NCBI GenBank assembly: GCA_012520945.1 | Contig: JAAYNH010000082.1 | Coordinates: forward strand, 1-64,000 | DNA from: Treponema sp. | Lineage (GTDB): Bacteria; Spirochaetota; Spirochaetia; Treponematales; Treponemataceae | Length of the DNA stretch: 64,000 nucleotides | Reading direction: 5' to 3' | Shown here: in pieces, positions 2,727 through 14,395 of the stretch | Numbering within the stretch: position 1 is the first letter of the stretch | How the letters are laid out: each line of letters opens with the position of its first letter | Position numbers and translations under genes: made by a program | The notes under the pieces: model-generated | What the model saw: only the letters and a program-made list of their open reading frames with translations | The model's database searches: none | Told to the model about the DNA's origin: nothing

Positions 2727-3410
2727 ATGTTTGAATGTGTGTTTTGTTTAAAAAAAGATATTAATTTTTTTAATATTACAAATCGTAATTATTATTTTTG
2801 TAATAATTGTGGTGGTATTTTTGTAGGGAAAGAAAGTTTTGTGTGTGAAAATACACAAAAAGACAGATATTTATTTCATAAAAATACTCTTAAAAATGCA
2901 GGTTATAAAAAATTTTTACAAAATTTTATCGATCCTGTTTTAGAAAAAGTAATACATAAGGTAGATATAAATCAATATTTTTCTATTTTTGATTTTGGTA
3001 GTGGTCCGGAACCGTGTTTAATTCAACTTTTATATGAATATATTGATAATGGTCAATTACCTAAAAATACACAACTTTTTTATTATGATAAATTTTTCAC
3101 ATCTAAAAAAATATTTGTGCCTTCTAATTTGTGTGTTTGTTTGGAAGTTGTAGAGCATTTTGAAAATATTGATGATAGTTTTAATGAACTTTCACAATGT
3201 GTTATTTCCGGTGGTTTTTTGGCAATTGGAAGTGCCTTTGTACCTGAAAAATCGTTTAGCATTGAAGAATTTTCTAAATGGTGGTATAAGAATGATATTA
3301 CTCACGTTAGCTTTTATACAATTAAAGCGATTATAGAAGTATCAAAAAGAGCAGGTTTCAGTTTTTATGCTCAATTAAATGATAAATGTATTTTGCTTCA
3401 AAAAATATAA
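2727..3410 (+). CDS. zinc-finger-like class I SAM methyltransferase
   Basis: About 227 residues. The N-terminus carries two CxxC pairs (CVFC and CNNC) that could bind zinc. A Rossmann-type methyltransferase segment follows, with the SAM loop FDFGSGPEP, then EVVEHFENIDDSFNELSQCV and a GGFLAIG strand, as in the Methyltransf_23/11 family. The substrate cannot be told. ATG at 2727 is preferred; an in-frame TTG at 2718 would add three residues but falls within 3 nt of the -10 box. The gene is very AT-rich and lies divergent to flaB; its last 36 bases overlap the convergent pyrophosphatase gene. Confidence 0.75.
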   Translation: MFECVFCLKKDINFFNITNRNYYFCNNCGGIFVGKESFVCENTQKDRYLFHKNTLKNAGYKKFLQNFIDPVLEKVIHKVDINQYFSIFDFGSGPEPCLIQLLYEYIDNGQLPKNTQLFYYDKFFTSKKIFVPSNLCVCLEVVEHFENIDDSFNELSQCVISGGFLAIGSAFVPEKSFSIEEFSKWWYKNDITHVSFYTIKAIIEVSKRAGFSFYAQLNDKCILLQKI

Positions 3411-4028
3411 CATCTTTTTACAAGCTTTTCCACGATGAGAAATATCATTTTTTTCTTTTTCAGATAACTCCGCTACAGTTTTGTTGTCGTCTTTCAAATA
3501 TACAATAGGGTCGTATCCAAAACCACCACTGCCATTTGCATTTTCTATGGATGTTACAAGATAACCTTCTAATGTTTCTTGTACAGTAATAAATTTATCT
3601 TTACCATAATAAAAGGTTAGGGCGCAAACAAAACGACAGGTTCTATTGTGTAAGTCTGAAATTTTTTTACCTTGACTGTTAAGTATTTCATTAACTTCAT
3701 CAATAAGTAATTTGTTTCTTTCTTCAGATGAAAGATTTTCGTTATAATTTGTAATTAAATTTTTCCCTGCGTATCGGGCAGAATAAATTCCGGGCTTTCC
3801 ATCGATTGCATCAACACAAATACCGGAATCATCTGCTAAAACAGGACCATTAATAATATTAAATAATTGTTCAGCTTTTAAAAGAGAATTAGCCATAAAG
3901 GTATTACCGTTTTCAATCGGATTAAAATTAATACCTACTTCTTTTGGAATAATTATTTCAAAATCACGAAAAACTTCTTGCATTTCATATTTTTTGTGTA
4001 AATTGCCACTAGCTAAATAAATTTTCAT
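3375..4028 (-). CDS. rdgB: RdgB/HAM1 family XTP/dITP pyrophosphatase
   Basis: The 217-residue protein begins MKIYLASGNLHKKYEMQEV, carries LADDSGICVDAIDGKPGIYS and NGSGGFGYDPI, and has a SHRGKA segment near the end: the HAM1/RdgB family, which hydrolyses ITP, dITP and XTP to keep deaminated purines out of nucleic acid. The family is usually about 200 residues; this protein has a short insert around residues 115-130. No Shine-Dalgarno is seen: a TTGAAA-17-TAAAAT promoter ends 6 nt before the ATG, suggesting a leaderless mRNA. The 3' end overlaps the methyltransferase gene tail to tail. Confidence 0.93.
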   Translation of the reverse strand: MKIYLASGNLHKKYEMQEVFRDFEIIIPKEVGINFNPIENGNTFMANSLLKAEQLFNIINGPVLADDSGICVDAIDGKPGIYSARYAGKNLITNYNENLSSEERNKLLIDEVNEILNSQGKKISDLHNRTCRFVCALTFYYGKDKFITVQETLEGYLVTSIENANGSGGFGYDPIVYLKDDNKTVAELSEKEKNDISHRGKACKKMLYFLKQNTFII

Positions 4029-4034
4029 ATTATT

Positions 4035-4063
4035 ATTTTAACAAAAAAATGTATTATTTTCAA
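4035..4063 (-). promoter_or_regulatory. promoter of rdgB, likely leaderless
   Basis: TTGAAA (4063-4058), a 17-bp spacer and TAAAAT (4040-4035) lie just before the ATG at 4028, leaving 6 nt between the -10 and the start codon. The -35 overlaps the stop of the upstream gene. Confidence 0.6.
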
Positions 4064-4911
4064 TTTTGTTTTTCCAGATAATTTCGAATTTTTCGTAATT
4101 TAGTTTTTACTTGATATTCTGATAAATTTAATATTTGTGCAATTATACGATTACTTGTATATATTTTTATTTTATCTGAAAGAGTTTTTTTCCATAATTC
4201 ATCTTGGAATTTTTGAGAATATTTAGTTTGTATAAATTTTAAATTATTTTTTTCTAGATAATCAAGAGAATATTCGTGTCGAATTTTATAATAATATGCT
4301 TTACAGATTTTTGTTTTATATTTTTCAAGCTTTTTTATTTTACTGACAAGTGATTCATCTGCTTGTAATTTATATTGCCACAAAACATCCGGATTTATAT
4401 TTATTTTTTTTGCAAGTCTTTCAATTGATTTATCAGTTAAATAATAACTTATTTTTAATGCCAAAATTAATAAACAGTTTTTGTCTAATTTTTTATTGTC
4501 GATATATATGTCAGGAAGTTCTTCATTTTCATTTTCTAAATATGAACACTGAGGTTCATAAACATAATTTTGTAAACATATATATTCATTTTTCATATAT
4601 GATTCATCGAATTCATTATTAATTTTTTTTAAGCATTGATTTCTTTCCCATGATTTAATTTGAAATGCTATTGTATTATATACAAATGTTAAAATTGAAG
4701 ATTTTTCGGAATCATATCTCGAAAAAATATTTGATAAACTTTCATATGAATATATATAAAAATTATTGAATGTCTTTTTATTAAAATTTTTATTTTTAAA
4801 ATAACTTGTGTTAAAGTAAAGAATTTCAACTAATTTTTTTACAGCTTCTTTTTCCTCGATTTTGCTTTTGGAATAGTTTTCATAAACCTTTTTAATTTCC
4901 TCAAATTGCAT
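4060..4911 (-). CDS. sigma-factor-like DNA-binding protein of unknown role
   Basis: The 283-residue protein is not confidently assignable. Residues about 60-100 (ESLSNIFSRYDSEKSSILTF, then VYNTIAFQIKSWERN) look like the helices of sigma70 region 2. The C-terminus (SNRIIAQILNLSEYQVKTKL, then RKIRNYLE) looks like a region 4 helix-turn-helix. It is lysine- and asparagine-rich. The start has an AGGAG site 9 nt upstream and sits inside an inverted repeat (4903-4955). A consensus sigma54 promoter (4948-4964) precedes it, so it is probably made on demand by an NtrC-type activator such as the one at 13046. It could be a divergent ECF-like sigma factor or simply an HTH regulator. Confidence 0.55.
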   Translation of the reverse strand: MQFEEIKKVYENYSKSKIEEKEAVKKLVEILYFNTSYFKNKNFNKKTFNNFYIYSYESLSNIFSRYDSEKSSILTFVYNTIAFQIKSWERNQCLKKINNEFDESYMKNEYICLQNYVYEPQCSYLENENEELPDIYIDNKKLDKNCLLILALKISYYLTDKSIERLAKKININPDVLWQYKLQADESLVSKIKKLEKYKTKICKAYYYKIRHEYSLDYLEKNNLKFIQTKYSQKFQDELWKKTLSDKIKIYTSNRIIAQILNLSEYQVKTKLRKIRNYLEKQN

Positions 4912-4955
4912 AATATTTATCTCCTAATAAATTGATAAAAGATATTATGCAATTT
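4903..4955. repeat. perfect 14-bp inverted repeat across start codon and -12 element
   Basis: The sequence aaattgcataatat at 4903-4916 recurs as its exact reverse complement at 4942-4955, with 25 bp between. The left arm contains the ATG at 4911 of the sigma-like gene; the right arm contains the TTGCA of the sigma54 promoter; the AGGAG ribosome site is in the loop. If transcription starts 12 nt after the -12 element (about 4937) the upstream arm is not in the RNA, so the repeat more likely acts in DNA, for example as a repressor site. Confidence 0.7.
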
Positions 4956-4964
4956 GTGTGCCAA
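4948..4964 (-). promoter_or_regulatory. sigma54 (-24/-12) promoter
   Basis: On the minus strand TTGGCAC-ACAAA-TTGCA matches the RpoN consensus (TGGCAC, 5 nt, TTGCW) exactly, with GG and GC 10 bp apart. The predicted start, about 4937, gives a 26-nt leader with an AGGAG site correctly spaced from ATG at 4911. No enhancer site for an NtrC-type activator could be picked out in the AT-rich upstream DNA (4965-5100). Confidence 0.75.
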
Positions 4965-5103: not shown

Positions 5104-5139
5104 AAATAAAAAAAATCTTGGAAAAAATTCCAAGATTTT
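5104..5139 (-). terminator. intrinsic terminator after nrnA
   Basis: aaaatcttggaa-aaaa-ttccaagatttt is a perfect 12-bp stem with a 4-nt loop followed on the minus strand by a U-run, 25 bp after the nrnA stop. Shorter copies of aatcttggaaa occur just beyond it at about 5040-5060. The flanking A- and T-runs allow it to work in both directions. Confidence 0.85.
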
Positions 5140-5163: not shown

Positions 5164-6147
5164 TTAATTTTTAAAAAATTTTTCAAATTCTTTAAGAAGT
5201 TTTGGAAGAAGGTCTGTAATTGTACCTTCAATACTTAATCCGGCAGCATTTTTATGTCCGCCACCACCAAATTTAGCTGCAATTTTGCTAACATCAATTG
5301 AATCTTGAGAACGAAAACCTACGGTACATGAAGATGGTGTGTCTTGTCGCAAAAAAAGAGCTACTTCAACTTTTCCGATTGAAAGTAGCAATGAATATAA
5401 ACTGTCAGTATCACGACCATTTTTTCCGAATTTTAGCGTATCTTCTAAGGATTCTTGAGTGTAAACCAATTTTCCTCCAAAACATAATTCGGCTTTTTCA
5501 AGCATAATTGCTAAAAGTTTTCGTGTTGAAAAAGGTTTTCCATTTGTAATTTGTGTGAAAATATATTTTGGATTTACTCCCGCTTCAACTAAGCGTGAAA
5601 TTGCTAAAAAGAAATCGGAACTATTTTCATCTAAAAATCTGAAAAAGCCGGTGTCGGTACACATACCTAAAAACAAAATTTCAGCGGTTTTTTTGTCCGG
5701 TTTACCTACAAAATGTTCATAAAGTAACTGAACAAGATATGCAGATGCAGGTGCAGACGGAATTACAATACTTTTGCTTTTTGGAACGTTTGATGTTTTA
5801 TGATGGTCAATTATAAAATTATCATAATTAATCACTTGTTCTGCAATATCACCTAAGCGATGCATTTCCGAGCAATCTAAAATAATTACACCTATTTTTT
5901 CTTGTTGTATGAATTCCGGCTTTATTATTTGTGAAAAATATTTTGCAAATTTTTTAATTTCTGTTCGTTTAAAAGGACCGCTTGATAATAATTGATATGG
6001 AAGATTTAATTTTTTTAATATGGCAGCCATGCCCATACAACTTGTTAAACAATCACCATCTGGTTCTTTGTGGCCAACAATTAAAAAATGGGTATGGTTT
6101 TTGAGGAAATTTTCAAAATTATGGTACTGCTTTTCAGAAATAAGCAT
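5164..6147 (-). CDS. nrnA: DHH-DHHA1 phosphoesterase, NrnA-like nanoRNase/pAp phosphatase
   Basis: The 327-residue protein has the DHH-family motif series: GHKEPDGDCLTS near residue 25, DCSEMHR, the DHH motif in IDHHKTS, and the DHHA1 signature FGGGGHKNAAG near the C-terminus. This is the bacterial NrnA type that degrades 2-5 nt RNA and removes the 3' phosphate from pAp in the cytosol, using Mn ions held by the Asp and His residues. It is last in a probable operon after argF and a periplasmic protein (26-bp gap with an AAGGA site), followed by a strong terminator. Confidence 0.9.
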   Translation of the reverse strand: MLISEKQYHNFENFLKNHTHFLIVGHKEPDGDCLTSCMGMAAILKKLNLPYQLLSSGPFKRTEIKKFAKYFSQIIKPEFIQQEKIGVIILDCSEMHRLGDIAEQVINYDNFIIDHHKTSNVPKSKSIVIPSAPASAYLVQLLYEHFVGKPDKKTAEILFLGMCTDTGFFRFLDENSSDFFLAISRLVEAGVNPKYIFTQITNGKPFSTRKLLAIMLEKAELCFGGKLVYTQESLEDTLKFGKNGRDTDSLYSLLLSIGKVEVALFLRQDTPSSCTVGFRSQDSIDVSKIAAKFGGGGHKNAAGLSIEGTITDLLPKLLKEFEKFFKN

Positions 6148-11798: not shown

Positions 11799-12998
11799 AT
11801 GAGAGATTTTGTCAATATTGTTTCAAAAAAATTAGATAAACTTACTCAAAAGCAAATTGAAAATATTTTGGAAACAATGGCTGATGAAAATGACATGTTA
11901 CAATCCGTTTTTAATAGTTTGGCAACAGGCTTACTTATTTGTGATAAAGATTGGCAACTTTTATACAAAAATAAAGCCGTTGACAGATTTATAACTTTTA
12001 ATATTAGAAATGCAGAACTATTACATAATGACACAAAAGATATAATTCCAATTTGGAAAATTGTTGATGAAAAAAAAATTTCACTTTTTTTTCAGGAAGT
12101 TGCACAAAATAATAAAAATAATGTTTGTGAAGAATTTATAATTGATATGCCAAACGGTAATGCCCGGATAATAAATATTACAAATTTACCATTGGTTTTT
12201 AAAAGAAAATGGATAGGTTCAATATTTCAAATTGAAGATATTACTGAAAAGCGAAATCAAGAAATTTTGCTTCGTCGTATGGAAAATCTATCAAATCTTA
12301 CTAATTTGGCGGCAAGTGTTGCTCATGAAATTAAAAATCCGTTGGGTGCTATTTCAATACATGTGCAATTAATGCAAAAAGCTATGAGAAAAGCACGTAA
12401 AGAAGGGGTTTTTCCACAAGAAAAATTTTGCGAAAAATATTTAAGCGTTGTTAATGAAGAAATTGAACGATTAAATAAAATTATAGTTGATTTTTTGTAT
12501 GCTGTACGTCCAATTTCTGCTAATATTGAACCTGTTGATTTAGGTAAAGTGTTAGTAGAATTTAGACAGTTTTTGTTACCGCAGTGTAAAAGTAAAAATA
12601 TTGATTTTACACTTGAAGTTGAAGAAAATCTATGTGCTGTAATGATTGATGAAAAACTTTTTAGACAAGTTTTGATGAATCTTGCACAAAATTCAATTAA
12701 TGCATTAAAAAATGGCGGAAAATTTGGAATTAAGGTAACAAAAAAAGATGAATATATTTTAATTAGTGTTGCAGACAATGGTTGTGGTATGGACGAAGAA
12801 ACAACTTCAAAGATTTTTGAACCATATTTTACAACAAAAACTACAGGAACCGGTTTAGGTTTAACAATGGCATATAAAATAATACGTGAATTTGGTGGTA
12901 ATATTGAAGTTAAAAGTAAATTGGGTGAGGGGACTATTTTTATTATTACATTACCCGGTTGTCAAAGTAAAATGCCTAAGTTGGAATTTTTTGAGTAA
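11799..12998 (+). CDS. atoS: soluble PAS-type sensor histidine kinase, AtoS/NtrB-like
   Basis: The 399-residue kinase has a PAS-like domain (about 35-150), an H-box VAHEIKNPLGAI with the phospho-acceptor His at 176, an N-box NLAQNSINALKNGG (294-307), G1 VADNGCGMDEE and the F/G2 boxes FEPYFTTKTTGTGLGL. There is no membrane segment, so it senses a cytosolic signal, as NtrB does. GAGGTGA precedes the ATG. The neighbour 47 bp downstream is its likely partner, an NtrC-family activator. The input signal cannot be told from sequence. Confidence 0.92.
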   Translation: MRDFVNIVSKKLDKLTQKQIENILETMADENDMLQSVFNSLATGLLICDKDWQLLYKNKAVDRFITFNIRNAELLHNDTKDIIPIWKIVDEKKISLFFQEVAQNNKNNVCEEFIIDMPNGNARIINITNLPLVFKRKWIGSIFQIEDITEKRNQEILLRRMENLSNLTNLAASVAHEIKNPLGAISIHVQLMQKAMRKARKEGVFPQEKFCEKYLSVVNEEIERLNKIIVDFLYAVRPISANIEPVDLGKVLVEFRQFLLPQCKSKNIDFTLEVEENLCAVMIDEKLFRQVLMNLAQNSINALKNGGKFGIKVTKKDEYILISVADNGCGMDEETTSKIFEPYFTTKTTGTGLGLTMAYKIIREFGGNIEVKSKLGEGTIFIITLPGCQSKMPKLEFFE

Positions 12999-13045
12999 AA
13001 CTACTATATTTAGGTTTGATATAATCGGTTAAAGGATAAAATAAT

Positions 13046-14395
13046 ATGAAATTTAACATACTAATTATTGATGATGAAAAAAATATCCGCGAAGGTTTAT
13101 CCGAATCATTAGAACTTGAAGGTTATAATACTTTTTTGGCAGAAAATGGCAAAGAAGGTTTGGAACGCATTGCTAAGGGCGATATTGATTTAGTTATCAC
13201 CGATTTAAGAATGCCGGAAATATCCGGAGAAGAAGTTTTAGCTCAAGTTACAACTGAATCTCCCGGTCTTCCTGTAATTGTTCTCACAGGTCATGGCAGT
13301 ATAGATAATGCAGTTGAAGCAATGCGAAATGGTGCATATGATTTTTTGACAAAACCGTTAAATCTTGATCGCTTGACTTTGATTGTAAAGCGAGCGTTAC
13401 AACGTCGTGAATTAATTTTGGAACAAAGAGAATTACAAGCTGAGCTAAAAAGTAAAAAAACATTTGAAAATATTATTGGTACAAGTAATGAGATGCAAAA
13501 AGTTTTTCAAATGATAAAAAAAGTTGCTCCTTCAAAATCTTCTGTTTTAGTTACCGGTGAAAGCGGAGTTGGAAAAGAACTTGTCGTTAATGCCATTCAT
13601 GACCTGTCTCCTAGAAGTAAAAACAGACTTATTTCCGTAAATTGTTCGGCTCTTTCGAAAGATTTGCTTGAAAGTGAACTTTTTGGTCATGAAAAAGGTT
13701 CTTTCACCGGTGCTCAAGGTATGCGACGTGGACGCTTTGAATTAGCACATGAGAGTACACTTTTTTTAGATGAGATTGGTGAAATTGATCAAAATATACA
13801 AGTAAAAATATTGCGTGTTTTGCAAGAAAAGCAATTTGAACGAGTTGGCGGTGAACGAACAATTGACGTTGATGTAAGAGTTATAGCAGCAACGAATCGT
13901 GATTTGGAAAAAGAAATCGAAAAAGGTAATTTTCGTGAAGATTTGTATTATCGGTTAAATGTTGTACACATACACATTCCGCCACTTCGTGAACGAAAGG
14001 ACGATATTCCGCTTTTAGTATCTGCATTTTTACAAGAATTTGCAAAAGAAAACGGTAAAAAAATTGATGGCATCGATGTGAATGCTCGTGCTGCTTTATA
14101 TAAATTCGATTGGCCGGGAAACATTCGTCAACTTCGTAACAGCATTGAAAGTGCTGTAGTTATGTGTGACGGTAATGTTATAACTTTGGACGATTTACCC
14201 CCTAGTATTCGTAATACTCATGAAGTTGATACAATAAAAGTTCCTGCCGGAATTACAATTCAAGAAGCTGAAAAAATTATTATTATGCAAAATTTGGCAA
14301 TTCAAAAAGGTAATAAGTCAAAAACTGCAAATATATTAGGTATAGGCAGAAAAACATTACATAGAAAACTTGAAGAATATAAAGAAAAAAATTAA
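13046..14395 (+). CDS. atoC: sigma54-dependent response regulator, AtoC/NtrC family
   Basis: The 449-residue protein has a receiver domain (1-120) with acidic D9/D10, phospho-acceptor D53 and K103; an AAA+ domain with Walker A GESGVGKE (170-177) and the sigma54-contact loop GSFTGA (217-222, canonical GAFTGA); and a Fis-type HTH at the C-terminus (KTANILGIGRKTLHRKLEEY). It should hydrolyse ATP to open sigma54 promoters once phosphorylated by the adjacent kinase. The only strong sigma54 promoter seen in the window is at 4948-4964. AGGA precedes the ATG. Its stop shares TTAA with the stop of the convergent AraC-type gene. Confidence 0.95.
   Translation: MKFNILIIDDEKNIREGLSESLELEGYNTFLAENGKEGLERIAKGDIDLVITDLRMPEISGEEVLAQVTTESPGLPVIVLTGHGSIDNAVEAMRNGAYDFLTKPLNLDRLTLIVKRALQRRELILEQRELQAELKSKKTFENIIGTSNEMQKVFQMIKKVAPSKSSVLVTGESGVGKELVVNAIHDLSPRSKNRLISVNCSALSKDLLESELFGHEKGSFTGAQGMRRGRFELAHESTLFLDEIGEIDQNIQVKILRVLQEKQFERVGGERTIDVDVRVIAATNRDLEKEIEKGNFREDLYYRLNVVHIHIPPLRERKDDIPLLVSAFLQEFAKENGKKIDGIDVNARAALYKFDWPGNIRQLRNSIESAVVMCDGNVITLDDLPPSIRNTHEVDTIKVPAGITIQEAEKIIIMQNLAIQKGNKSKTANILGIGRKTLHRKLEEYKEKN

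Follow-up and report, generated by a model that had tools for sequence, protein, structure and literature searches.

The gene of a sigma-like protein in the window, the 64,000-nucleotide stretch of Treponema sp. DNA that we analysed, almost certainly has a real sigma54 promoter, judged by sequence comparison across orthologous loci. The core of this promoter (-26 to +1) can pair with the ribosome site or start codon of the gene, and this complementarity was retained among orthologues in which the arm sequences vary freely. As the role of the resulting repeat we lean towards a translation lock, in which RNA started upstream would hide the start and RNA started at the sigma54 promoter would leave it open. 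The fuller reading, to which we give about an even chance, is that the gene encodes a fast-evolving sigma-like regulator of an order-wide sigma54 regulon and that its promoter has been selected to serve also as an anti-ribosome 5' arm, giving a double lock on a core treponemal regulator.

The promoter, TTGGCACACAAATTGCA (4948-4964, minus strand), reads TTGGCAC-N5-TTGCA, with the -24 element at 4964-4958 and the -12 element at 4952-4948, and lies 53 to 37 bases 5' of the ATG of the sigma-like gene. The first-pass annotation had described it as a sigma54 promoter with ideal GG/GC spacing, and this was borne out: it agreed with 12 of 13 consensus positions, and a sigma54 site preceded 94 of the 100 further orthologue copies fetched, including loci at 20-28% protein identity. 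Because the C at -12 is position 4949, the start of transcription was placed at 4937. In the orthologues 10-65 bases and a Shine-Dalgarno typically separated the site from the start codon, these start codons having been set by a simple Shine-Dalgarno rule that may be wrong in a few cases, and three other families of the order also showed a sigma54 site at the sigma-like gene. The source genome has one RpoN, and the pattern TGGCAC-N5-TTGCW with at most one mismatch occurred at 103 sites in it, against 29 for the reversed pattern. By its sequence (GG-N10-GC, the TGGCAC/TTGC consensus, a position 5' of a gene, and a genome with rpoN) the site belongs with sigma54 promoters, but it is the comparative evidence, the sites at orthologues, that we regard as decisive for its being real.

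Loss of RpoN was ruled out as the cause of missing promoter sites, as rpoN was present in 35 of 35 genomes. In three loci of one genus (L139, L159, and L161) the site lay 164-259 nt 5' of the start, and the leader contained inverted repeats of considerable length, suggestive of inserted elements. In L164, L082, and L083, which we take to be T. denticola-type loci, the sigma-like gene has a -24 element that is short of one G (TTTGCAC). T. putidum (L218) retains TTGGCAC at this gene.

The sigma-like gene (4060-4911, minus strand) encodes 283 aa, with a diverged sigma70 region-2-like N-terminus, a middle without assignment, and a C-terminal helix-turn-helix. The protein has 20-28% identity to its relatives and belongs to no Pfam family. 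The sigma70-ECF model TIGR02937 matched 19 of 30 relatives with a best E of 4.5e-9 (only 0.02 for the window protein), and we find the label sigma-like, as first assigned, reasonable on this sequence evidence; we do not claim a working sigma factor. Pfam matches among the relatives were weak, with region 2 in 3 members and region 4 in 2-3. In a profile comparison with canonical sigmas the helix-turn-helix alone aligned, at 26% probability, and a structure prediction from two sequences gave a pLDDT of 43.

By profile search, 249 of the family's 274 genomes, and 125 of the 128 good ones, had the gene, which occurred in further families of the order as well. A 1.1-Mb genome that retains rpoN gave no match. 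Scans of named genomes gave no match for the window protein, and the T. denticola-type protein matched T. putidum only. In the open-access literature, to which our search was confined, we met no account of this gene, nor of a lock of this kind at a sigma54 promoter.

The gene order nrnA, sigma-like gene, rdgB was kept in nearly all of these loci despite the low protein identity, and the loci are therefore orthologous. In the window, rdgB (XTP/dITP pyrophosphatase; 3375-4028, minus strand; Ham1p_like E 4.7e-49) begins 31 nt downstream of the sigma-like gene and is probably the second gene of its operon. The upstream neighbour, adjacent in nearly all orthologous loci, is an nrnA-like DHH/DHHA1 gene (5164-6147, minus strand), which we infer to be the natural source of read-through RNA. 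It is followed by an intrinsic terminator with a 12-bp stem and a U tract (5112-5139, minus strand; z -5.0). The genome has three strong sigma54 activator genes, and one of these lies in the window about 7 kb from the sigma-like gene, where an AtoS-like histidine kinase and an AtoC/NtrC-like sigma54 activator are encoded together (11799-14395, plus strand; activator 13046-14395). This protein is a possible candidate for the activator of the promoter. The window also contains two flagellin (flaB-like) genes in tandem at 414-2496 on the minus strand.

The promoter lies partly within a perfect inverted repeat. The first-pass annotation had given this repeat as 14 bp long and as covering the -12 element and the ATG; its perfection and placement stood, and its length was corrected to 15 bp. 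The upstream arm, CAAATTGCATAATAT (4942-4956, minus strand), contains the -12 element, and the downstream arm, ATATTATGCAATTTG (4902-4916, minus strand), contains the start codon (4911-4909); the 25 nt between them hold the Shine-Dalgarno AGGAG (4925-4921). The claim that RNA from 4937 keeps one arm only also held, on the start as we place it, with the upstream arm at -19 to -5 and so outside that RNA. A perfect repeat as long as this one was reached in 1 of 2000 dinucleotide shuffles of the surrounding 140 bp. No other perfect repeat in the 64-kb window combined arms of 14 nt or longer with a spacer of at most 60, and six shuffled windows had none.

The predicted fold of a read-through RNA (5000-4875) had an energy of -19.5 kcal/mol, compared with -9.8 for shuffles (z -4.0). 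In this fold the downstream arm was paired and the AUG with it, fully, and in the minimum-energy structure an inner 7-bp stem (4920-4942, minus strand; 4942-4936 with 4926-4920) also paired the Shine-Dalgarno. In the sigma54 RNA of the window the Shine-Dalgarno was predicted to be 96-98% unpaired. The folds thus resemble those of T4-type locks in that the read-through structure covers the Shine-Dalgarno and AUG, and a start at the inner promoter drops the 5' arm.

To measure the complementarity we exchanged partners between species, a control that keeps the TTGC, GGAG, and ATG constraints. Across 25 non-redundant loci the own pairing averaged -11.7 kcal/mol and the swapped pairing -8.4 kcal/mol (z -6.5). 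The excess persisted when this window was left out (z -6.3), when each genus contributed a single locus (median z about -4.6), and inside one genus (z -7.9). It vanished when the arm was reversed (z 0.06), and replacement of the core by the region from -60 to -33 gave a z of -1.6. Strong stems (score at least 8) were present in 32 of 111 loci compared with 6.5 expected, so that pairing is kept in relatives beyond chance and is strong in about 30% of loci; many very short leaders have no strong stem. Examples of different arms joining promoter core and ribosome site or start codon are CATAAAAACCTC/GAGGTTTTTATG in L078, ATCAGTTTTCAA/TTGAAAACTGAT in L031, and GTATCTCCTTATA/TATAAGGAGATAC in L118, and L105 has a 16-bp stem when G-U pairs are included. 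Recurrence of the repeat at orthologues had been proposed as a check; its sequence was not conserved, and what recurred beyond swapped controls was the complementarity. The supposition that such a switch was not known from other spirochetes had to be given up, as the pattern turned out to be common to many treponemes.

Predicted accessibility of the ribosome site was 0.60 in the sigma54 RNA and 0.37 in the read-through RNA; exchange of the upstream sequence gave 0.46 (p 1.4e-7 for 111 loci; 0.01 for the 25 non-redundant). Across 111 loci the sense strand gained more pairing than the antisense strand (p 0.005), and this difference was not significant among the 25 non-redundant loci (p 0.31). 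Counts of G-U versus A-C within stems did not tell RNA and DNA readings apart.

In the mechanism that we propose, RpoN holoenzyme and an enhancer-binding activator would start transcription at about 4937. The product would have a leader of 26 nt in which the ribosome site is open, and sigma-like protein, probably with RdgB, would be made from it. RNA arriving from upstream, by nrnA read-through or from stray starts, would contain the promoter sequence, which would serve as a 5' arm. Because the complementary arm lies mostly 5' of the presumed start, the sigma54 RNA would lack it and the read-through RNA would contain it. The latter would fold into a 14+7-bp hairpin, and since this would pair the Shine-Dalgarno and the start codon, the RNA is proposed to go untranslated. 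With transcription controlled by sigma54 and translation by the promoter-encoded arm, the gene would thus be locked twice. Against this lock stands that a strong stem is confined to about a third of the orthologues. A guard on read-through might also predict a link between pairing and the nrnA terminator or the gap to nrnA, and we saw none; the expectation of stronger hairpins where nrnA has no terminator found no support, as pairing was independent of both. In the window itself, the good nrnA terminator already limits read-through.

The first-pass annotation had preferred to see the repeat as a DNA operator for autorepression. On this reading the sigma-like protein or another dimer would bind both arms, block RpoN and early elongation, and so repress the gene. 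The perfect two-fold symmetry across the -12 element and start codon suits this, and there is a precedent in the T4 endonuclease I-TevI, which binds at its own late promoter and represses it (PMC2988022). However, at one mismatch or fewer the arm motif occurred at 12 places only in the genome, with the exact copy only here, and the arms differ between orthologous promoters, which share no operator motif, yet their pairing persists. We consider an operator unlikely, though for this one species it keeps some chance, and less supported than the annotation's second choice, a hairpin in upstream-started RNA hiding the start codon, because the arm sequence is not common to the orthologues, complementarity alone is, and the gain is larger on the sense strand, if modestly so. 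A third view takes this hairpin as a regulated switch, for example an RNA thermometer or a leader that responds to a ligand, in a transcript whose normal start lies upstream. An AU-rich 14+7-bp stem covering the Shine-Dalgarno and AUG would fit such a switch, as would the sigma54 control of hsp20 and of a sigma factor in these genomes. It is nevertheless very improbable: promoter-like sites upstream did not clearly exceed what shuffles gave, a search against Rfam matched no family, and the sigma54 start removes the arm.

It may also be that only the sigma54 promoter matters and that the complementarity is functionless, having arisen through local inversions or template switching in AT-rich sequence together with shared constraints (TTGC, CTCC against GGAG). 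The missing link with terminators speaks for this, as does the fact that about two thirds of the orthologues are without strong stems. However, swapped partners keep all of the shared constraints and pair worse, and the single perfect repeat in 64 kb sits at the sigma-like gene. In the same order, 21 further sigma54 promoters, in front of hsp20, sigma-factor, and nifH-like genes, showed no excess either: none had a shuffle z below -2, and the mean was +0.5, compared with -1.64 at the 25 orthologues (p 3e-5). We leave a functionless repeat a small but real chance, and hold to the translation lock as the reading that we prefer.

To our knowledge the role of RpoN in Treponematales is largely unstudied, and the present results indicate a near-universal, uncharacterised sigma54-controlled regulator in this order. 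If the lock is true, the promoter of this regulator would act through translation to shut out every other start. The same genome has perfect sigma54 sites 5' of an hsp20 gene and of a canonical sigma70-family gene (273 aa), at L043 (G000:C46:20739) and L045 (G000:C56:25142), and in relatives, too, sigma54 sites precede these two kinds of gene. Many of these hsp20 and sigma-gene promoters (L188-L217) have a TTAATGT/TAGTGT-like stretch near +1, which the sigma-like gene does not have. In T. denticola, the core stress genes include the sigma70-family gene TDE0937 and the hsp20 gene TDE1029 (PMC2965109). Since sigma54 drives hsp20 and sigma genes here and the T. denticola counterparts, which are only putatively the same genes, take part in stress, the stress response of treponemes may have sigma54 at its head.

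In IS10/IS50, read-through RNA folds over the ribosome site of the transposase gene and the native RNA does not; unlike the sigma-like gene, these are transposons with a sigma70 promoter, and the purpose is to avoid activation after insertion. In phage T4, the genes e (lysozyme), soc, and I-TevI have a late promoter within a ribosome-site hairpin, and for e and I-TevI the early RNA is locked by a hairpin over the Shine-Dalgarno and AUG, while the late-promoter RNA, without the 5' part, is translated (PMC3014915, PMC2988022). The likeness is close, as in both systems the long upstream RNA hairpins over the Shine-Dalgarno and AUG (in treponemes by prediction) and RNA from the inner promoter is without the 5' part. 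In T4, however, the promoter is a phage late promoter, and the effect at gene e was measured at about 100-fold (PMC3014915, PMC2988022), whereas in treponemes a regulator gene on the chromosome has a sigma54 promoter, the arms have changed many times over with pairing kept, and the effect is a predicted one. A parallel among spirochetes is the RpoN-RpoS cascade of Borrelia, in which sigma54 directly drives the gene for a sigma-type protein (PMC3037356). Both arrangements place a gene for another sigma-type protein under sigma54, but RpoS is a canonical sigma70-family member, whereas the treponeme protein is highly diverged and encoded in the nrnA-rdgB locus.
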